Made by a program: the position numbers and the translations under genes. The notes beneath the pieces were generated by a model. It made no database searches. It was given only the letters and a program-made list of their open reading frames with translations, and was not told where the DNA came from. A stretch of DNA of 64,000 nt from a virus: positions 46,249 to 110,248 of IMG/VR virus record IMGVR_UViG_3300047444_000617, one strand, 5' to 3'. Positions 4,001 through 56,428 of the stretch are shown in pieces (the first letter of the stretch is position 1; each line of letters begins with the position of its first letter).

Positions 4001-5542
4001 TTACTCTCCCTGTTCGTTGAAGAAAGTTGGTACATCGACGACCTCAGCGTCGATGAATCCGCTCGACTGCTCGATCATCCGGTCCGCTGACATCGGACGG
4101 TCGAGCGTTGTCATCTGCTCCCCCGCGTCCCGCCCGAAGATCCGGCTGATCATCCCCGCCTGGGCGCCGTTCCCCTTGGCTTCCAGTTTCACGGAGAAGC
4201 CCTCCTGCTCCAGTTCGGTCTTGACCTTGACCAGTTTCTGAAGCCGGTCGATCTCGCCGGACAGGTTCGGATCCGCGTATCCGCCGGTCATGTCCTCGAC
4301 CATCTTCATGAAGAGCACCCGCTGCGCCTGCATCTCGATGAGCGAGTTCTGCAGCGACTGCATCTGCTGCTTGCTCTTCACCTGTACCGGGATGTCGTAC
4401 GCGCAGTTGCTGTGCTGGTCGTACGCCGGGCACTTCGAGGACAGGAAGCAGGAGGAGCACTGCCGCATGGACTGGCTGCGCACCGTGACCAGGGGGACGT
4501 CACGTTCCTTGTTGAGCCCGTCCTCGGGGTCGGTGTAGGTCTCCTTCTCCTGCACCAGGCCGATGACCGGCAAGTTGGTACGCGGCCGGTCCTTCCTGGG
4601 CATGGGAGTTGATACGCCGTTGAGCGGTTCGGAGTCCGCCGTACCAACTTCACCCCCCTGCAATTGAGCGAAACCGGAAAGTAGCCCGGAGGGGGAGGTA
4701 GTAACTGCTTCGGGTGAGTTCGGGCGGTGCTGCTCGATGGAGGCCGCCAACTGCTGCCACGACCAGATGGTGAAGCGCAGGACCTCGTCGTTGTCGCCGT
4801 CCTCGATCTTGTCGGCGTCGAAGCCCGCTTCTATGAATAGCGTGCGGTGCCTCTTTCGTGCCTGCTCCTTGTACTTCTTCGGGTAGCGCTTCAATTCCCG
4901 GCCGGTCCACACAATGGTGTCCCCGTATTGGCTGGGGGAAAGCCAGGAGGTCGACGCCACGCTGTCCCAGGTGACGGCTGCCATTTCCGCTGGCTTCGTC
5001 ATGGCGACGCCGTGGAGCAGCGTGCCGTATTTCCTGGTGATCTCGTTGAGGACCGGTGTGAGATTCCGTCCGTCGAGATCCGTCTGGGTAACTCCGACGC
5101 GCTTGTATCGCTGGGCGAGGCGGTCGAGTTCTTCGACTCCCCATTCCGCGTGCCATATGGGAAGGAATTTGTCTTCCGGGATGTCCTCCCAGAAGTCCTC
5201 CCGCATTGCGGCTATCCATTCGCGTCCGAGAACGACCGCGTCGAACTCGGACACCATATGAAGCGAGTCGATGTTCTGCTGGACGAACGCCATGTAGTGC
5301 GCGGCGATTTCCTTCAGTTCAGCGACGGAGTACTTGTCGTCCTCGGCCTTGTTCACCGTGTAGGCGCCGGAGTCCAGGAACACCTTCTGGTTGGGCAGGT
5401 AGTGGTCCTGGATCAGCCAGGGCCTGGAGAACTTGGTGCGTCGCCGCAGCCCCATGTACGACAAGGAGACGTTCTCCACGCCTTCCTCGGCCAGCATCTT
5501 CCGCCAGCCTGGAATCTCAGAGCCTCCCAGAAAGAGGTGCAC
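4001..5542 (-). CDS. TIM-barrel protein resembling tRNA-guanine transglycosylase / DpdA
   Basis: 513 residues, GTG start with GGAG nine bases upstream. Residues ~1-270 look like the TGT/DpdA barrel: VFLDSGAYT near residue 55 (compare the LDSGAF signature), FDAVVLGREW, and HGVAMTKPAEM followed by the strand SVASTSWLS around 195-215. DpdA proteins exchange guanine for a 7-deazaguanine in DNA; TGT does so in tRNA. The C-terminal ~200 residues are extra: a Cys cluster (CSSCFLSSKCPAYDQHSNC) that could bind zinc or Fe-S, then coiled coil. Contains LHM coded CTT CAT ATG. No queuosine-pathway partners are visible in the window, so substrate is open. Confidence 0.55.
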   Translation of the reverse strand: MHLFLGGSEIPGWRKMLAEEGVENVSLSYMGLRRRTKFSRPWLIQDHYLPNQKVFLDSGAYTVNKAEDDKYSVAELKEIAAHYMAFVQQNIDSLHMVSEFDAVVLGREWIAAMREDFWEDIPEDKFLPIWHAEWGVEELDRLAQRYKRVGVTQTDLDGRNLTPVLNEITRKYGTLLHGVAMTKPAEMAAVTWDSVASTSWLSPSQYGDTIVWTGRELKRYPKKYKEQARKRHRTLFIEAGFDADKIEDGDNDEVLRFTIWSWQQLAASIEQHRPNSPEAVTTSPSGLLSGFAQLQGGEVGTADSEPLNGVSTPMPRKDRPRTNLPVIGLVQEKETYTDPEDGLNKERDVPLVTVRSQSMRQCSSCFLSSKCPAYDQHSNCAYDIPVQVKSKQQMQSLQNSLIEMQAQRVLFMKMVEDMTGGYADPNLSGEIDRLQKLVKVKTELEQEGFSVKLEAKGNGAQAGMISRIFGRDAGEQMTTLDRPMSADRMIEQSSGFIDAEVVDVPTFFNEQGE

Positions 5543-46186: not shown

Positions 46187-48046
46187 TCAGACGAGGTTGC
46201 CGATCGGGATCTTCGCGTTGATCATGAACGTGTCGTTCACCGCGATCGTCGGCAGCCCCTGACCCCGGAACTCGCCACTGCTGTTCACGTAGGTGGCGAT
46301 CGACGCCGTGGCCGTGGACATCCGGATGGCACCACCCGCAGGACTGACGTCACCCCCGAGGCTGACGCCGGGAAGGCCGGTGGCGATCAGAGCACTCGGA
46401 GAGGTGCTGGTGGCATGGAAGACGCCGACCAGGTGGATGTTGTCCTCCCCGTCTCGACGCCACCGGAGGTTCGGGTAGGCACCACCGATGCCTGTGCCCT
46501 GCGCCCATCCGGTACCCATGACCGCGTCGGTCCAGGACTCCGCGTTACCAGAGAGGTCGGCCTTCACCACCGCGCCGCTGACCAGCAGGTTGGCCGCGTA
46601 GGTACCGGTGCGCTCGGTCACCGTTACGCTCGGCGGGAGGGGGAGTGTCGAGTCCCCTTCGGAGATGGTGAGCCGCGCCGCGAGGTTGGGGCCGCCACCT
46701 CCCTCGAAGCCGGAGTCCACCCGGACAGCACCTGGGCCGTCGCTGATCATGGTCGACGAGGCGCCGGTGTTGTTCGCTCCGGCGTCGGTGAAGACCAGTC
46801 CGCCACCAGACAGAGAGGTGGTGGACGTGCCACTGGTCGTGGAGATGTCCCCGTTGGCGCCACCGATGTCGGCCGTCACGGCGCCCGTCGAGTCGTACAC
46901 CTTCATGCTGTTGTCACCCGCCTCGTTCAGCGTGATGCGCTCGCCGGACGTGGCTGTCTGGATGGTGGATCCGGTGATCGTCTTGCCGTCGATGGCGGTC
47001 GCGGACAACTGGGATGCGGAGATCGTCCCCACCGTGATCTTGGTGGCGTCGATGCTGGCGATGACACCACTCGACGCGGTGATCGTCCCGGCCGCCATCT
47101 CGTTGGCCGTCACAGAGTTCGCCGCGATGTCACTGGTACCTGCCTGCTTGGGAGTGTCGGAGTTCGCGCCCGAAGGGGCGGAGGCGATGCCGACCTTGGA
47201 GTACGCGATCAGCCGGTAGTTGTAGGAGTTGGCGTAGTTCTGCACCGAGTCGTAGAGGAAGTCCGGGCCGGTCAGGGTGCCTACGACCACCGGGGCGGGG
47301 AACGCCGGATCCGTGTCGCGCTCGACCTGGACGTGGGAGAAGATCAGTGGCATCGCTGTGCCGGTGTGGTCCAGCCCGTCCCAGGTAACGCGCAGGCCGC
47401 CCAGGACACCCAGGACTGCGGGCGTGGAGGGGACCGGCGGCGGAGTCGTGGAGGACGCGGTGGTGATGTCCGTGGAGGACCACAGGGAGGCGTTGCCGGA
47501 GTTGTCGAGGGCCTGGACGCGGACGAAGAAGTCCACGCCGGTATGAAGGCCGTCGAAGACGACGAGGGTGTCCTCAGTGATCTGGCCGCCGGACCAGTTG
47601 GTGCCGTCGTAGGAGGTCTGCACGACGTAGTGCGACAGGTCGACGAGGTTGGTCCCGTCCTGGTTCTCCGTCGGCGCAGTCCAACTGGCCGTCACGTGCG
47701 CCCGCGTGCTGCCGTCGTCGGCGATGTACTGCACGGTCGACAGTGTCAGCGCGGTCGGCTGCTTGGGAGGCATCGAGTCGTACTCAAGACCCCCTACCTG
47801 GTCCTGTACTTCCTTGATGCCCAGCGGGGAGTACACCGGCTGGGTGACGTCACCACCGGAGAACTGCACCCACACGTTCTGTCCGGCCGCAGGCACGGTG
47901 TTCGTCGGGGAGGCCGGAACCGCCCAGGCGCTCTCCGCTCCGCCCAGGATCTGAGGTATGAGCAGGGTGACGCGGGCCTCCTTGAGGGGGTCCACGTTGT
48001 TGGCAACCGTCCCTGGATACATGCCAAGAACCGGGTCAGACGACAT
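46187..48046 (-). CDS. Baseplate spike (gpV/gp5-like OB-fold) with fibronectin-type regions
   Basis: 619 residues. Residues 1-80 (MYPGTVANNVDPLKEARVTL, then AAGQNVWVQFSGGDVTQPVY) are the OB-fold of gpV/gp5 spikes. Then two fibronectin type III-like repeats (~110-300; HYVVQTSYDGTNWSGG), a long Thr/Ser/Ala heptad part (ASGVIASIDATKITVGTISA) as in tail fibres, and a C-terminal beta domain. The fusion of spike and fibre parts is unusual. DGLHTGVDF is the only motif copy between 39 and 50 kb. Confidence 0.78.
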   Translation of the reverse strand: MSSDPVLGMYPGTVANNVDPLKEARVTLLIPQILGGAESAWAVPASPTNTVPAAGQNVWVQFSGGDVTQPVYSPLGIKEVQDQVGGLEYDSMPPKQPTALTLSTVQYIADDGSTRAHVTASWTAPTENQDGTNLVDLSHYVVQTSYDGTNWSGGQITEDTLVVFDGLHTGVDFFVRVQALDNSGNASLWSSTDITTASSTTPPPVPSTPAVLGVLGGLRVTWDGLDHTGTAMPLIFSHVQVERDTDPAFPAPVVVGTLTGPDFLYDSVQNYANSYNYRLIAYSKVGIASAPSGANSDTPKQAGTSDIAANSVTANEMAAGTITASSGVIASIDATKITVGTISASQLSATAIDGKTITGSTIQTATSGERITLNEAGDNSMKVYDSTGAVTADIGGANGDISTTSGTSTTSLSGGGLVFTDAGANNTGASSTMISDGPGAVRVDSGFEGGGGPNLAARLTISEGDSTLPLPPSVTVTERTGTYAANLLVSGAVVKADLSGNAESWTDAVMGTGWAQGTGIGGAYPNLRWRRDGEDNIHLVGVFHATSTSPSALIATGLPGVSLGGDVSPAGGAIRMSTATASIATYVNSSGEFRGQGLPTIAVNDTFMINAKIPIGNLV

Positions 48047-50207: not shown

Positions 50208-50293
50208 CAGGCACCCACCGCAGCAGAGACTCGGTGAGAGTTTCGGAAGTGGGGCCCAGGGCCCCACGTATGAAGTCGGTCAGTGATAGCCAT
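50207..50293 (-). CDS. Micro-ORF between tape measure and baseplate genes (MAITDRLHTWG...)
   Basis: 28 residues. ATG 50293 overlaps the tape measure TAA (TAATG) and its TGA overlaps the next ATG (TGATG), so every base of the gap is coding. Starts MAITDRLHTWGPGPHF, with CTT CAT ACG in frame, then a His/Arg-rich end. No family recognised. Confidence 0.65.
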   Translation of the reverse strand: MAITDRLHTWGPGPHFRNSHRVSAAVGA

Positions 50294-53262
50294 TAGTTTC
50301 CTGCCGCGATGAGATTGATTCGGTCGTCCTCGGCGATGGCCTGGATGAACTTCTGTGCGGCATCTCGGGCCGACTGCTGGTCCATGGCACCCTGCACCTT
50401 GACCACGACCGAACCGGCGTGGAAGTTGAGGGTGGGCGTAGCGCCCTTGGTATGAAGCCCGCCGACTCCCCCGGTAAGCGGCGTGTTCGACGCCAGCGAC
50501 TTGCGGAGAGCCTCGGCCTGGTAGGCGGGGATGATCATCTCGCCCTTGTGGACGCGCGCCGTCTGGTCGACGTCGATGTTCGCCGAGCCGACCGCGTACC
50601 CCTTGTAGGATCCGCCGTTGGCCATGCTCTTGATACCGGGGGCGTTGGCCAGGGAACCGTATCTGGATTCCTCGTACCGCACTCCGGCGATGATGTTGTC
50701 GACCGGGTTCCAGATGTTCTTGTGTCCCGGAAGTGCGTATGCGTTGAACGTGGAGTCGATCGTCTGCATGATGCCCTTGGACGGGTGTCCCGCCTTGGCG
50801 TTGGCATCGGTGTTGTTCTGCGAGCGGGGGTTTCCCCCGGACTCGTGCATGGCGATGGTGTTCACATACCGCTCATTCGCGGGCGTGTCCTGCTTCAGAA
50901 TTCCCAGGGCGCTCTTGATCCACGTCTTGAGGTTCCCGCTAGGCAGCGGGCCGGAGGCGGTCGAGCCGTTGTCAGTGTTGCGGGAGGAGTGCTGCCCGGC
51001 GCCGACACCGGACGTCAGGTTCGCTGCGCCGATCGTGGAGATCCCGGCCGCGATAGCGTCGACCTCCTCGGTGGACCCGTAGTTGCCGACGTCCCCGCCG
51101 AAGCCCATGGTGGACAGCCGGTTGGATGTCGACCCTGCGGTGTCGGAGTTGTCGTTGGCCTGGTCGTTCATGTTGCCGACCGAGCCCAAAATCCGGCGGG
51201 CGTTGGTGAACTCGCCGGGGCTGAAGGAGCGGATACGGACCGAGGCGCCTGTGTGCGGGGCTTCCAGGCACTTGCCATTGCCGATGCACAGCACCACGTG
51301 GTGCGCGGGATTGCCGACGAACATCAGGTCGCCTGCACGCACCTGGTTCATCGGGACGGCCTTGCCGACTTTCTGCTGCTGGGCAGCGGTACGCGGCAGG
51401 CTGACACCGATCTGCTTGAAGGCGAACTGCATCAGGCCCGAGCAGTCGAAGCCGGTCTGCGGGCTGCCACCGCCCCACTTGTACGGGGTGCCCAGGTACT
51501 TCTCGGCGATGCGGATAACGGCGGCTGCGGTCTTGCCAGCACCCTGGGTGCCTGTGGCAGCGGCCCCTCCCCCGCCCGCGCCGGTAGCAGCAGCGGCATT
51601 GCCGCCCGTTCCGCCACCGAAGATGCCCGCGAGCGCGCCCACACCTGCACCGATTCCCGCGCCGATACCGGTTCCGATGACAGGGACGACCGAGCCGATG
51701 GCGGCACCGGTGAGCGCGCCGGTCGCGGTGTCCACCCCGACGTGCGCCAGCTTGTTGCTGGTCTTGCCCTTGACGTGCTTGTCGATGACCTGGTTACCGA
51801 AGTGGTGCACACCCCATGCGCCCAGCCCGTACGCCCCGGCCTTGCCGAGGGTGCTCATGGACAGGTTCAGCATCCCCCCGCCTGCCCCGCCGGGCATTCC
51901 GAGCAGTCGGCTGGCCGAGCCCAGACCCCGGGCGATCCCCAGGGCGCCGAGGCCTCCGCTGATGCTGGATCCGAGCAGCGACCCCGCGCCCCCGGCCCAG
52001 CCCATGATGCCGTCCGCGCCGGACACCTGGAGTATCTTCTGCAGCGACGTGGAGAAGGCGTCCAGCGCCTTGGTGGCGCCCTGAAGCCCTTCGGTGAAGG
52101 CGTCGTTGATGTTGACGTCCTGGTTCCGCAGGGTGCCCGCACGGGTCATCAAGGTGTTGGCCGTCGAGCCGCCGATACCCATCTTGCCGAGGGCGGACTG
52201 GGCGGCGTTCTTCTGCTGCTGCGTCTTGCCGTTGTCACGCTGGTTGGCCAGGTTGGTGTACGTCTGCGCGGTGCCACCGTGCACCTGGGCCAGCAGCATG
52301 CCCTTGAGTTCGCCCTTGACCAGTTCCAGGGTGTTGGCGTCCAGGCCCCACGAGTTCAGCGACTGGTTCAGGCCGGACGCGGGGTCGTCGAGGGTCGCCG
52401 ACAACTGTGCGGCGGTCGTGACCCGCTTGAGTTCGGGGAAGCGCTGGTAGATCTGCTGGGCGATCTGGCGGGGGGTCTGCTTGCTGCCGTTCTTGATCGT
52501 CTGGATCCCGAAGCCGCGCAGGGTGTTGTAGGTGCCTGCGTTCCATGCTGCGGCCGTGCCCTGGGCGCGCTGCGCCTGGGACATCCCCGGGTTCACGTAG
52601 CCGGAGGTGCCCTTGATGTAGTTCCACTGGGTGTTGTACGCGGACGTGCCCGGCGACAGGCCCATCTGGGCCATGATCGAGTACGCCTGCGCGGCGTCCT
52701 GGGTGGACTGGGCGGTGAAGTTGTTCTTGAACGCGGCGTCGCGCAGGTTGTGCCAGGACTGGGAGGAGTACTGCGCTGCCTGATAGGCGGTGGTCTGCAT
52801 CGTGACCTGGTCGGGCAACTCCTTCTGACCCCACTTGACGATGCCCTGCAGGCCGCTCTTGAAGGTGGGTCGGCCGCCGTTGTTGGCCGCGCCCCCACCC
52901 ATGCGCCGGGTACCGGGCCCGGAGCCGCCGGAGCCTCCCTGCCCGCCGTTGTTGCCACCGCCGGTGTTGCCCACCAGGGTCAGGGAGCCGGAGGTGAAGC
53001 GGTACGTACCGCCGTTGCCGAAGCGCGAGCCTCCCTGGCCGCCGTTGGGCTGGGAGTTGGCGAAGTTGCTGGTGCCGTTCCAGACGTCTCCCAGGGCGAG
53101 GCCGATGCCCCGGGCACGGGAGACCTGCCCGATGCCGGTGTTGACCCCCTGGAGCCCGCGCGTGAGGTCGTTGATGGTACGCGTCAGGGCAGAGATCGAA
53201 TCCTGGGCCTGATTGAACCCAAGAAGCGAGCCCTGCCCTGCTACGGTGCTCTCGCTAGTCAT
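50293..53262 (-). CDS. Tape measure protein with NlpC/P60 and lytic-transglycosylase domains
   Basis: 989 residues from ATG 53262 (GAGG upstream). Gly/Asn-rich start, helical middle, Gly/Ala-rich hydrophobic part (GALTGAAIGSVVPVIGTGIG). Residues ~580-690: FDCSGLMQFAFKQIGVSLPR and NPAHHVVLCIGNGKCLEAPH, an NlpC/P60 peptidase. Residues ~810-900: ANERYVNTIAMHESGGNPRS then GIMQTIDSTFNAYA, a soluble lytic transglycosylase domain. GLHTKG near the end is the repeated motif. It sets tail length and opens the wall. Confidence 0.92.
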   Translation of the reverse strand: MTSESTVAGQGSLLGFNQAQDSISALTRTINDLTRGLQGVNTGIGQVSRARGIGLALGDVWNGTSNFANSQPNGGQGGSRFGNGGTYRFTSGSLTLVGNTGGGNNGGQGGSGGSGPGTRRMGGGAANNGGRPTFKSGLQGIVKWGQKELPDQVTMQTTAYQAAQYSSQSWHNLRDAAFKNNFTAQSTQDAAQAYSIMAQMGLSPGTSAYNTQWNYIKGTSGYVNPGMSQAQRAQGTAAAWNAGTYNTLRGFGIQTIKNGSKQTPRQIAQQIYQRFPELKRVTTAAQLSATLDDPASGLNQSLNSWGLDANTLELVKGELKGMLLAQVHGGTAQTYTNLANQRDNGKTQQQKNAAQSALGKMGIGGSTANTLMTRAGTLRNQDVNINDAFTEGLQGATKALDAFSTSLQKILQVSGADGIMGWAGGAGSLLGSSISGGLGALGIARGLGSASRLLGMPGGAGGGMLNLSMSTLGKAGAYGLGAWGVHHFGNQVIDKHVKGKTSNKLAHVGVDTATGALTGAAIGSVVPVIGTGIGAGIGAGVGALAGIFGGGTGGNAAAATGAGGGGAAATGTQGAGKTAAAVIRIAEKYLGTPYKWGGGSPQTGFDCSGLMQFAFKQIGVSLPRTAAQQQKVGKAVPMNQVRAGDLMFVGNPAHHVVLCIGNGKCLEAPHTGASVRIRSFSPGEFTNARRILGSVGNMNDQANDNSDTAGSTSNRLSTMGFGGDVGNYGSTEEVDAIAAGISTIGAANLTSGVGAGQHSSRNTDNGSTASGPLPSGNLKTWIKSALGILKQDTPANERYVNTIAMHESGGNPRSQNNTDANAKAGHPSKGIMQTIDSTFNAYALPGHKNIWNPVDNIIAGVRYEESRYGSLANAPGIKSMANGGSYKGYAVGSANIDVDQTARVHKGEMIIPAYQAEALRKSLASNTPLTGGVGGLHTKGATPTLNFHAGSVVVKVQGAMDQQSARDAAQKFIQAIAEDDRINLIAAGN

Positions 53263-53434
53263 TCCCCGCCTCAGCAAATCGTCTGTGTCGCTGCGCTCTG
53301 AACCACGTCATCCAGTGAATGCGTTCGCGCACGGTCAACCGGCGAATTTCGCTGAGGCTCCACGCCGGACTTAGTTCGACTAGTTGCTCGTATTCAAAGT
53401 ACGTGTCGTGATAGTTACAGGCCCTGAAACAGGT
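53255..53434 (-). CDS. Tail assembly chaperone extension read by probable +1 frameshift
   Basis: 59 codons open in the +1 frame beyond the 53415-54278 gene, ending TAG over the tape measure start (ATGACTAG). There is no start codon near its beginning; the frame opens only 30 bases before the upstream stop, and that window contains GGGGG (53435-53439), where tRNA-Gly on GGG can re-pair after +1. The product continues TCFRACNYHDTYFEYEQLVE. It fills the gap before the tape measure, the normal place for this arrangement. Confidence 0.65.
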   Translation of the reverse strand, partial: TCFRACNYHDTYFEYEQLVELSPAWSLSEIRRLTVRERIHWMTWFRAQRHRRFAEAGND

Positions 53435-54278
53435 CCCCCGCCGAGATCATCAGGGGGACCTCCTTACCGCACGAATCGTGCAGGAACTTGACATCATTGT
53501 ACTGAGGGCCTGGCTGCTTTTCCTCAATGGCGTCGAGGATTGAACGGCGGTCGACGATGCCCAGCGAACGCGCGAATTCCGGGTTTCCGGTCACCGCGTT
53601 CTCCGTGCCGTCGGCCTCGACGACCGAGATCAGGCAGCGCGAGAGCAGGAGGGTGTTCTGCTCGGACTCGGTGGCACGGTCGACGACCGCGAGGATCGCC
53701 TTCTGGTCGGAGCCCACGGGAAGACGCACGAAGGCCTTCCGGTTCCGGCGCAGTTCCACCTCGAAGACACGCTGGGAAGGATCCTCCAGGCGCCGGATCG
53801 GGATCTCGTCGAGGGTGACCGCCAGGCGGAACTCGTCGCCGCAGAACGGGCAGGTGTAGCGCTCCCAGACGATCTCCTCGCCGTACGTGGCGCGGCGGAT
53901 CTCCAGCAGCAGCATGTCGCGGTCGCCGAGCAGGAGGTTGTCCAGGACGGTGGGACCGGAAGGCTCGTCGCCGACGGTTACGGTGCCACATGAAAGCAGC
54001 GTGGTGATGAATGTGCCGACGCCACCGGAGCGCGCCTTGGTGATGGCTTCCTCGTCGGCCCCGGTCAGTTCACGTACCTCGGCGTCGTAACGCGCGTTGG
54101 TGAAGTCGCCGCCCAAGACGTAGCCCCCCGGCAGGCGGAACATGCCTCCTGCCGGGGGTGCGATCTCGGGCTTCTTGACCTCTTCGCCCCCGGCAAGCAT
54201 TGCCGCGATGGCGGCGTTGGCTGCAACAGGGTTGCTGAGGGGGTTGACGTACCCCTCGGTATGAAGGTCGTTAGCCAC
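53415..54278 (-). CDS. Tail assembly chaperone / tail protein with zinc ribbon
   Basis: 287 residues. NDLHTEGYVNPLSNPVAANA at the start carries the repeated motif. RYTCPFCGDEFRLAVTLDEI and LHDSCGKEVPLM give three Cys of a ribbon, and the frameshifted tail would add TCFRAC. Directly upstream of the tape measure, where tail assembly chaperones lie in nearly all long-tailed phages. Its length is larger than most, so it may also be a baseplate assembly factor. Confidence 0.6.
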   Translation of the reverse strand: MANDLHTEGYVNPLSNPVAANAAIAAMLAGGEEVKKPEIAPPAGGMFRLPGGYVLGGDFTNARYDAEVRELTGADEEAITKARSGGVGTFITTLLSCGTVTVGDEPSGPTVLDNLLLGDRDMLLLEIRRATYGEEIVWERYTCPFCGDEFRLAVTLDEIPIRRLEDPSQRVFEVELRRNRKAFVRLPVGSDQKAILAVVDRATESEQNTLLLSRCLISVVEADGTENAVTGNPEFARSLGIVDRRSILDAIEEKQPGPQYNDVKFLHDSCGKEVPLMISAGDLFQGL

Positions 54279-54317: not shown

Positions 54318-54869
54318 TTAGAAACTAACGGAAGACGAGCCGACGCTGTTAGCCAACTTCATCTCGAACCCCTCATGCGCGAGGGTCATTTGCTGAACGA
54401 TGATCGCGTTGGCACCGGCGTCCAGGTCCGAGAAGGCGACCGCTGTGGGCCAGGCGTTGTAGATGCGGAATGCAGCCTTGGCAGGGGTCGTGCCGGTGGT
54501 GACCGGGTGGTCGAGGACCTTGACGTCCACGGTGTGCCGGAATTCCGAACCAGCCTTCCCGTTACCGGTGCCCTGGATGACGGTGAACAACTGCCGCATC
54601 CAGTCCATCATCTGCGAGTCGCCGACGGCGAGGCCCTTGGAGAGGGTGATGGGTGCGAAGTCGGACTGACCAGGCATTTTCTGGGTAGTTGTGTTCATAC
54701 CGCCTTCGCGGTACGGAATCACCTCAGTCGTGACGTTCAGTCCCGAAAGGGACATGAAGCCCATGCGGGCGAACCCCTTGATGTCCGGGTGCTGGATCTG
54801 GACCTGGAACTTGAAGTTCCTCAAGGGATCCGAGGCGATGTGTCCGATGCTGGACGTGGTCGTTGCCAT
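54318..54869 (-). CDS. Tail tube protein, T4 gp19-like
   Basis: 183 residues from ATG 54869. DPLRNFKFQVQIQHPDIKGF, MSLSGLNVTTEVIPYREGGM and GQSDFAPITLSKGLAVGDSQ follow the contractile tail tube pattern. It polymerises inside the sheath. The next gene upstream is the sheath. Confidence 0.93.
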   Translation of the reverse strand: MATTTSSIGHIASDPLRNFKFQVQIQHPDIKGFARMGFMSLSGLNVTTEVIPYREGGMNTTTQKMPGQSDFAPITLSKGLAVGDSQMMDWMRQLFTVIQGTGNGKAGSEFRHTVDVKVLDHPVTTGTTPAKAAFRIYNAWPTAVAFSDLDAGANAIIVQQMTLAHEGFEMKLANSVGSSSVSF

Positions 54870-54883
54870 CAGTGGGTTACCTC

Positions 54884-56428
54884 TCAGGAAGTGGTCGTGC
54901 TGTCGGTGGCGGAGGAGCCCCCGCTGTACTGGCCGATCTCGATGACGATGAACTCGGCGGGGGTCTGCGTGGCGACGCCGACCTGGACGTTGACCACTCC
55001 CGCAGCCACGGAGGCCGGGGTGTTGTTGGTCGCGTCGCAGACCACGAAGTAGGCCTGGGCCGGGGTGGATCCGGCCAGCACGCCCGTCTGCATGAGCGTC
55101 AGCAGGTAGGCGGAGACGACGGCACTGACCTGGTCCCACAGGATCTGGTCGTTGTCATCGAAGGGCGCGAACTTGGTCGCGTCGAGGATCCCCTTCTTGA
55201 TCAGCATCAGGGACCGCCGGACCGAGACGTAGCGGTCGGGGGTGCCTTGCGAGAGGGTGCGCGCACCGTAGATCACGAAGCCGGTGCCGGGCAGCGACTT
55301 GATGACGTTGATGCCCGCCACGTTCAGCGTGTCCTGGTCGGCGTTGGAGAACCGGAACTGCACGTCCAGCACGCCCCGCAGGACGGTGTCGATACCGGCC
55401 GGAGGCTTCTGCACACCGCGCGAGGCGTCGGTGCGGCTGAACTGCCCCAGCACCGCGCCGCCGGGAGGCAGCAGCCGGGCCGAACCGGGCGTGGAGGTCG
55501 ACGGGTCGTTGACGATCAGCCACGGGCCGTAGACGGCCGCGTAGGACGAGGCGGTGATCGCCGAGCCGCCGGTGGACATGCCCTGCAGGGACAGCGCGTA
55601 GGAGTGGGCGTTGTCCGCCGAGGAGGCCTTGACGCCGTCCACGACAACGAACACCGTTCCCAGGCCCTCCGCCCACGCGATGACGGGGTTGAGCACGGTG
55701 GAGTCGGTGACGCCGGGCAGGTTCAAGATGAGGTTGTCCTCGATGACCTCCAGGCGCTCGGCCGCTGCACCCAGGTCCACCGTGGCCGACCCGTCCGCGC
55801 CGCCCGTGAGGGGAGTGCCGGTCTGCACCGCCGGGGCGTGCGTGACGTCCCAGGCGGAGGTCAGCAAGGAAGTGATCTGGACGAACTTCGAGCCGGTGAC
55901 GGGGCTGTTGATCAGCGCCTGCGCGTTGCGGGAGTCGGCCGGGTCCAGGGAGACGTCGGCGAAACGCTCCCGCAGGAACGCGGCCGTGGAGCCCCCGACG
56001 TAGACGTACAGGTCGAAGCGACCGGAGCCGGTGCTGGAGGCGACGACATCGACGTACACCGTGTTGCCCCACACCCCGGGGGATATCGCGGTGATCTTCA
56101 GCGTCCCCTCGGGAGTCGCCTCGGTGTCCTCCAGGGTGACCGAGGCAGCGACCGCGTCGGAGGCAGCCGCACGCACGATGTATGCGCTGTTCCCGCCGTT
56201 GTTGAAGTACTGGTAGACGGCGTACGGCAGCAGGTCCGAGGTGTCCCCGAACGAGCCGTAGGTGGCGACGTACTGGGCGAAGGACGACACCAGGGTCGGC
56301 GCCAGCGGGCCACCCTGCTTGCAGGTGCCGACGAAAGCCGCAACGGACTCGCCGGGAGTCGTCGCGGTCTGCGCCAAAGGCGCCAGCGTCTCGTCGATGT
56401 AAACACCGGGCCGCTTGTAAACGGTCAT
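54884..56428 (-). CDS. Tail sheath protein
   Basis: 514 residues. Start MTVYKRPGVYIDETLAPLAQ and the C-terminal QTPAEFIVIEIGQY are the sheath handshake strands; GTCKQGGPLAPTLVSSFAQY and NGGNSAYIVRAAAS in between are typical. It contracts during DNA injection and shows that the phage is a myovirus type. Confidence 0.95.
   Translation of the reverse strand: MTVYKRPGVYIDETLAPLAQTATTPGESVAAFVGTCKQGGPLAPTLVSSFAQYVATYGSFGDTSDLLPYAVYQYFNNGGNSAYIVRAAASDAVAASVTLEDTEATPEGTLKITAISPGVWGNTVYVDVVASSTGSGRFDLYVYVGGSTAAFLRERFADVSLDPADSRNAQALINSPVTGSKFVQITSLLTSAWDVTHAPAVQTGTPLTGGADGSATVDLGAAAERLEVIEDNLILNLPGVTDSTVLNPVIAWAEGLGTVFVVVDGVKASSADNAHSYALSLQGMSTGGSAITASSYAAVYGPWLIVNDPSTSTPGSARLLPPGGAVLGQFSRTDASRGVQKPPAGIDTVLRGVLDVQFRFSNADQDTLNVAGINVIKSLPGTGFVIYGARTLSQGTPDRYVSVRRSLMLIKKGILDATKFAPFDDNDQILWDQVSAVVSAYLLTLMQTGVLAGSTPAQAYFVVCDATNNTPASVAAGVVNVQVGVATQTPAEFIVIEIGQYSGGSSATDSTTTS

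Follow-up and report, generated by a model that had tools for sequence, protein, structure and literature searches.

A probable programmed +1 ribosomal frameshift at a conserved UUU_C site in a phage tail assembly chaperone gene related to T4 gp26 and gp51

The IMG/VR virus record IMGVR_UViG_3300047444_000617 (110,248 bases), a Streptomyces-type phage, was analyzed over a stretch of 64,000 nt (positions 46,249 to 110,248 of the record), hereafter named the window. Its minus strand carries a 287-codon tail gene that is overlapped at its 3' end by a second reading frame, which has no start codon of its own and extends to the tape measure gene. Comparison of this gene with its relatives indicates, with high confidence, that a programmed +1 ribosomal frameshift at CUG_UUU_C joins the two frames, and that the gene encodes a tail assembly chaperone with a short and a long form. 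The second frame is conserved as protein far beyond the window, it lacks a conserved start codon, and the tetranucleotide UUU_C is fixed within the overlap across most of the gene family. The elements of the proposed frameshift are as follows.

53415..54278, minus strand: zero-frame gene of 287 aa with a GTG start, predicted short tail assembly chaperone (TAC-N or 'G' type), matching PF12322 and PHROG 150
53426..53429, minus strand: candidate +1 slippery tetranucleotide TTT_C, consisting of codon 284 and the base to be skipped, C53426
53415..53417, minus strand: zero-frame stop codon TAA, three sense codons 3' of TTT
53258..53425, minus strand: +1-frame extension RACNYHDTYFEYEQLVELSPAWSLSEIRRLTVRERIHWMTWFRAQRHRRFAEAGND, 56 codons, putative TAC-C or 'T'-type domain, with a predicted fusion product of 340 aa
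53255..53257, minus strand: +1-frame stop codon TAG, adjoining the tape measure ATG

Conservation of the Second Reading Frame

The +1 frame of the window begins after a TGA at 53449-53447, is open from 53446 to 53258 (63 codons) and overlaps the zero frame by about 30 nt, which bears out the startless frame and the overlap described in an earlier note made from the letters of this DNA. That note had the frame end exactly over the tape measure ATG. This is accurate for the last two +1-frame codons, which cover the ATG, whereas the TAG itself lies just downstream.

Forty IMG/VR relatives with zero frames 72-93% identical formed the near-relative set, and both frames are kept in all of them as far as the contigs reach. 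Pairwise differences in their +1 frame number 320, 285 and 890 at codon positions 1, 2 and 3, respectively. Because the differences fall mostly at third codon positions, the substitution pattern indicates that the +1 extension evolves as a protein in these near relatives. The same two-frame arrangement occurs at about 40% identity in the cultured Streptomyces phages BRock, pSt2308, GiJojo, LuckySocke, and Alone3; the second frame is annotated as a separate hypothetical gene in BRock, GiJojo, LuckySocke, and Alone3 and is unannotated in pSt2308. More distant relatives comprise contigs assigned to Actinomadura, Terracoccus, Saccharothrix, Streptomyces, and Nonomuraea and a Bacillota metagenome-assembled genome (MAG), along with additional genomes and an extensive clade of IMG/VR phages recovered by means of locus L112. 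The window gene gave no match when phages were searched at the nucleotide level, and a tblastn search of phages with a Ramlibacter homolog found nothing.

A homologous out-of-phase second frame is open in all 109 distinct contexts with enough downstream sequence, so the second frame is confirmed to be real, being neither a chance opening nor a sequencing slip. Its W, L, and RER positions are 89-99% conserved among these contexts, and no start codon preceding the conserved W is common to more than 24 of the 109 at any column, in line with the earlier suggestion that the frame has no usable start. The window itself displays ATG, GTG, or TTG codons in this frame only 3' of the conserved tryptophan. 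The frame is thus a conserved, startless, out-of-phase extension that reaches the tape measure start.

The second frame could alternatively be an independent small gene whose translation begins by re-initiation or at a non-standard start. Separate small open reading frames (ORFs) are indeed annotated in the BRock, GiJojo, LuckySocke, and Alone3 records, and the zero-frame stop lies nearby; however, the annotated starts are not the same from phage to phage and leave out a portion of the conserved frame, and the first candidate start in the window comes too late to include the conserved W. A separate gene would also leave unexplained the fixed TTT_C and the homologs in which the second domain lies in frame, both described below. 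An independent gene is disfavoured because pre-W starts are shared so sparsely, and it is considered very improbable.

Contig ends fall within the extension in many IMG/VR records (L002, L007, L009, L013, L113, L114, L116, and L117), several at an identical base. Probably the assembly broke in this highly conserved region, or conceivably a genome end lies there.

The UUU_C Site across the Family

The survey of the PF12322 family covered 244 loci, 240 of which include the zero-frame stop. Within the overlap, a conserved candidate slippery site was found: TTT followed by C closely precedes this stop in 216 of the 240 loci, corresponding to 111 distinct contexts, and 2-3 sense codons separate the two in 110 of the 111. 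Carriers include cultured Streptomyces phages, actinobacterial genomes, and the large IMG/VR phage clade. The codon preceding TTT is mostly CUG, UUG, or UUA in the family, and the one following it is CAG, CGN, CAA, CTC, CCG, or CTG. The homologous domain at the 216 loci occupies the +1 frame, in agreement with the direction of shift proposed earlier. Alignment of the window group with the BRock group left C-CTG-TTT-C as the sole invariant block in the overlap; CCTGTTTC is invariant despite only about 39% identity between the groups, while GGGG varies.

Codon usage adds to this picture. TTT accounts for 3 of the 103 Phe codons in the tail genes of the window, and the other Phe codons of the gene in 18 high-GC lineages are 6 TTT versus 102 TTC, yet the site reads TTT in 18 of 18. 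The fixation of TTT at the site is notable in these high-GC relatives, since TTT is there a rare Phe codon.

The earlier note had assigned the slippage to GGGGG in the overlap, with GGG_G re-pairing to GGG, and had suggested looking for this run in close relatives with both frames intact. The motif GGG_GAY is invariant in the near relatives of the window and the +1 re-pairing of GGG to GGG would be perfect, but the G-run is missing, with both frames intact, from BRock, GiJojo, LuckySocke, Actinomadura, Streptomyces, Nonomuraea, and the L112 clade, and GGGGG is absent from most TTT_C loci. Both frames are likewise intact where the corresponding sequence is GGGG (L030/L031), GTG GGC ATC (BRock group), or GTC AGC GAC (Actinomadura, L118), and a run of at least four G is not consistently kept in relatives retaining the two frames. 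Furthermore, the G-run of the window group forms the 3' arm of a predicted hairpin, which provides an alternative reason for its conservation there. A +1 shift at the GGGG(G) run can hardly be credited on these grounds.

A -2 shift, or an event at the mRNA or DNA level such as RNA polymerase slippage or an assembly indel, is the least credible means of joining the frames: although a -2 shift and a +1 shift enter one and the same frame, the former would put the P-site tRNA-Phe on UGU, a poor match, the invariant site contains no homopolymer of at least 4 bases, which argues against polymerase slippage, and the same arrangement recurs in over a hundred distinct contexts, complete phage genomes included.

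Two loci of the family deserve mention on their own account. In L191 (about 2280-2320), a contig of the L112 clade, TTT_C is kept and the zero-frame stop is displaced downstream, which is either a sequencing error or a natural variant. Alishewanella phage Slicko01 (L174, 2100-2300) contains a +1-frame extension with a matching motif and no clear UUU_C.

Family, Fold, and Gene Context of the Chaperone

The zero-frame protein belongs to PF12322 (T4_baseplate), scoring 40.2 bits (E = 4e-10) against a cut-off of 24.5, and also matches PHROG 150, baseplate hub. T4 gp26 and gp51 match the same PF12322 model. The AlphaFold2 model of the zero-frame protein alone has a pLDDT of 87, and a Foldseek search of 350,542 PDB chains with this model ranked the HK97 tail assembly chaperone 2ob9 first (probability 0.89, target TM-score 0.53, E = 0.27). 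Matches of the model in the viral library BFVD are T4-type baseplate hub proteins, including a gp26. The alignment to T4 gp26 is limited to the zero-frame part, and a profile of the extension matches the C-terminal tail of gp51 (hhalign E = 0.00014), with none of 300 column shuffles scoring as high.

The tail genes, all on the minus strand, are ordered sheath, tube, the 287-residue gene, and tape measure. The gene thus has the position of a G/GT-type chaperone, with the tube upstream and the tape measure directly downstream, as the earlier note had recognized. Its neighbours are the following.

54318..54992, minus strand: T4 gp19-like tail tube protein (PHROG 4542, E = 3.7e-38), upstream neighbour of the chaperone gene
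50293..53262, minus strand: tape measure protein of 989 residues with NlpC/P60 and SLT lytic domains, ATG at 53262-53260

The assignment of a short and a long chaperone is based on the gene order tube, gene, tape measure, on PF12322 and PHROG 150, and on the weak HK97 fold match. Vladimirov, Gautam, and Davidson reportedly described in 2022 that the tail assembly chaperones of T4-like phages are made without frameshifting, the genes concerned reportedly being 26 and 51. The pairing of gp26 and gp51 of T4 as chaperones is thus already published, and the present result, arrived at independently, agrees with it.

The zero-frame protein also carries a zinc ribbon, C143-x2-C146 ... H267-x2-C270, in which position 267 is H or C. 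Completion of this ribbon by two extra Cys from the extension, as proposed earlier, was rejected: slippage at UUU_C adds a single Cys, C287, which is replaced by Ser, Ile, or other residues in relatives. The idea fails because the ligands C143, C146, H/C267, and C270 already lie in the zero frame and the added Cys is not conserved.

Proposed Mechanism of the Frameshift

UUU_Ynn is reported to be especially prone to +1 shifting in bacteria (PMC5009743). At the site in the window, UUU (codon 284) would occupy the P site, read by the GAA anticodon of tRNA-Phe through a wobble pair, and this tRNA may sometimes slip one base forward onto UUC, where the pairing would be perfect. C53426 would then be skipped, and translation in the +1 frame would add a 56-residue, presumably helical domain before ending at the tape measure start. 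The majority of ribosomes would stop at TAA and release the 287 aa short chaperone, with a minority producing the 340 aa long form. By analogy with lambda G/GT, many short copies may coat the tape measure protein and a few long copies may recruit the tail tube protein.

Several points weigh against a frameshift at UUU_C. Support for the shift itself is at the level of sequence, and the match of the model to 2ob9 is weak by its E-value of 0.27. RNA structure downstream of the site is no better than that of shuffled sequences (z about 0), on which ground it was rejected as a stimulator, and no universal stimulator was found, the upstream hairpin and the G-run being confined to the group of the window. 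In addition, TTT is the commonest Phe codon of low-GC clades (344 TTT versus 65 TTC); only the following C is informative there, because TTT is the usual Phe codon in these clades.

Elements flanking the site were predicted as follows.

53453..53460, minus strand: 5' arm GGTCCCCC of a predicted hairpin upstream of the shift site, a possible lineage-specific stimulator (folding compared with shuffles)
53432..53439, minus strand: 3' arm GGGGGACC of the hairpin, containing the GGGGG and also Shine-Dalgarno-like
53376..53395, minus strand: downstream element GAATACGAGCAACTAGTCGA under strong synonymous constraint, with the rare codons CAA and CTA invariant in the +1 frame

The hairpin has 8 bp (53460-53453 paired with 53439-53432) and ends two bases before TTT. 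Folding of GGTCCCCC/GGGGGACC gave z of about -3 to -5 against shuffles in the window group only; no compensatory changes were seen within this group, and the fold is weak in the BRock group. The upstream hairpin is possibly a local, lineage-specific stimulator. Downstream of the site, codons from about 290 to 300 show some of the strongest synonymous conservation in the gene: the rare-codon stretch GAATACGAGCAACTAGTCGA hardly varies at its synonymous positions among the relatives of the window, its CAA and CTA being otherwise almost unused.

Comparison with Known Frameshifting Systems

Frameshifting in tail chaperone genes is well known as a general kind, just as the relationship to T4 is published. 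Xu, Hendrix, and Duda are said to have described in 2004 the tail assembly chaperone frameshift of lambda gpG/gpGT and its relatives. The gene studied here resembles gpG/gpGT in its location between tube and tape measure, in the predicted short and long forms from one start, in a second frame that ends at the tape measure start, and in that neither protein is expected in the virion. Lambda, however, shifts by -1, whereas the shift here would be +1 at UUU_C; sequence likeness to gpG was sought by Pfam and PHROG scans only. The likeness to T4 gp26/gp51 lies in the shared Pfam family and in the match of the gp51 tail to the +1-frame domain, yet T4 employs two separate genes on opposite strands instead of one gene with a predicted +1 shift.

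The +1 site of influenza A PA-X is UCC_UUU_CGU (PMC5009743). Like the present site, PA-X and the bacterial UUU_Ynn sites have UUU in the P site and C as the skipped base, and CGN or CAR often comes next; gene, organism, and preceding codon differ, and no relationship by descent is implied. Tailed viruses also offer +1 shifts in tail or structural genes, namely in the tail chaperone of the halovirus HSTV-2 and in Listeria phage PSA, which shifts at CCC (PMC5009743), although the PSA shifts take place at a proline codon in capsid and tail shaft genes. In Vandenendeviridae/Andersonviridae, the tail chaperone is made with a -1 frameshift at GTTTTT (PMC12846349). Its gene likewise lies upstream of the tape measure gene, and its second frame is usually misannotated as a hypothetical protein; the direction is opposite, and the likeness noted here is one of arrangement.

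The phage literature contains far fewer programmed +1 frameshifts than -1 shifts, and no general motif has been agreed for the +1 kind (PMC10885494). A +1 UUU_C version of the present breadth was not found described in the literature that could be searched, most subscription papers being beyond reach. Across more than 100 distinct sites, the family supplies a natural alignment in which UUU_C never varies, and it does so for a class of genes whose ratio of shifted to unshifted product serves a physical purpose. It also yields a straightforward criterion, readable from the sequence, by which annotations of Streptomyces and other phages can be corrected.

Other Routes to the Same Domain within PF12322

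The conserved C-terminal domain is not tied to UUU_C throughout the family. The +1 UUU_C route is found in actinobacterial phages and genomes, in the large IMG/VR phage clade, and in a Streptococcus phage (TTC_TTT_CGT), and Listeria phage LIS04 has TTT_TTT_A, suggestive of a +1 shift at UUU_U. At AAT_TTT_TTA (L134/L150), at TTT_TTC (L158, L159, L175, L177, and L180/L181), and at CTG_GGG_GAA (L152), it is the -1 frame that encodes the second domain, which points to probable -1 frameshifts in the same family at U_UUU_UUA, U_UUU_UUC, and G_GGG_GAA, with few genomes for each. Both domains reside in a single open frame in the bacterial genomes L149, L135-L139, and L151, and the long fusion is plausible as one protein because these related genes are natural in-frame fusions.

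It is thus likely that this chaperone family arrives at a single conserved C-terminal domain in no fewer than five ways, namely +1 at UUU_C, +1 at UUU_U, probable -1 shifting, in-frame fusion, and separate genes as in T4. Were this so, UUU_C would rank with the +1 frameshift sites of deepest known conservation in phages, and recoding would have changed direction inside a single gene family with the product unchanged. The family also invites the question of why related phages rely on +1, -1, fusion, or gene duplication to accomplish one task.

A run of nine T was also observed close to where the chaperone gene of L131 (about 4690-4720), a Burkholderiales MAG, ends; its second domain is in the -1 frame, and an ATG overlaps.

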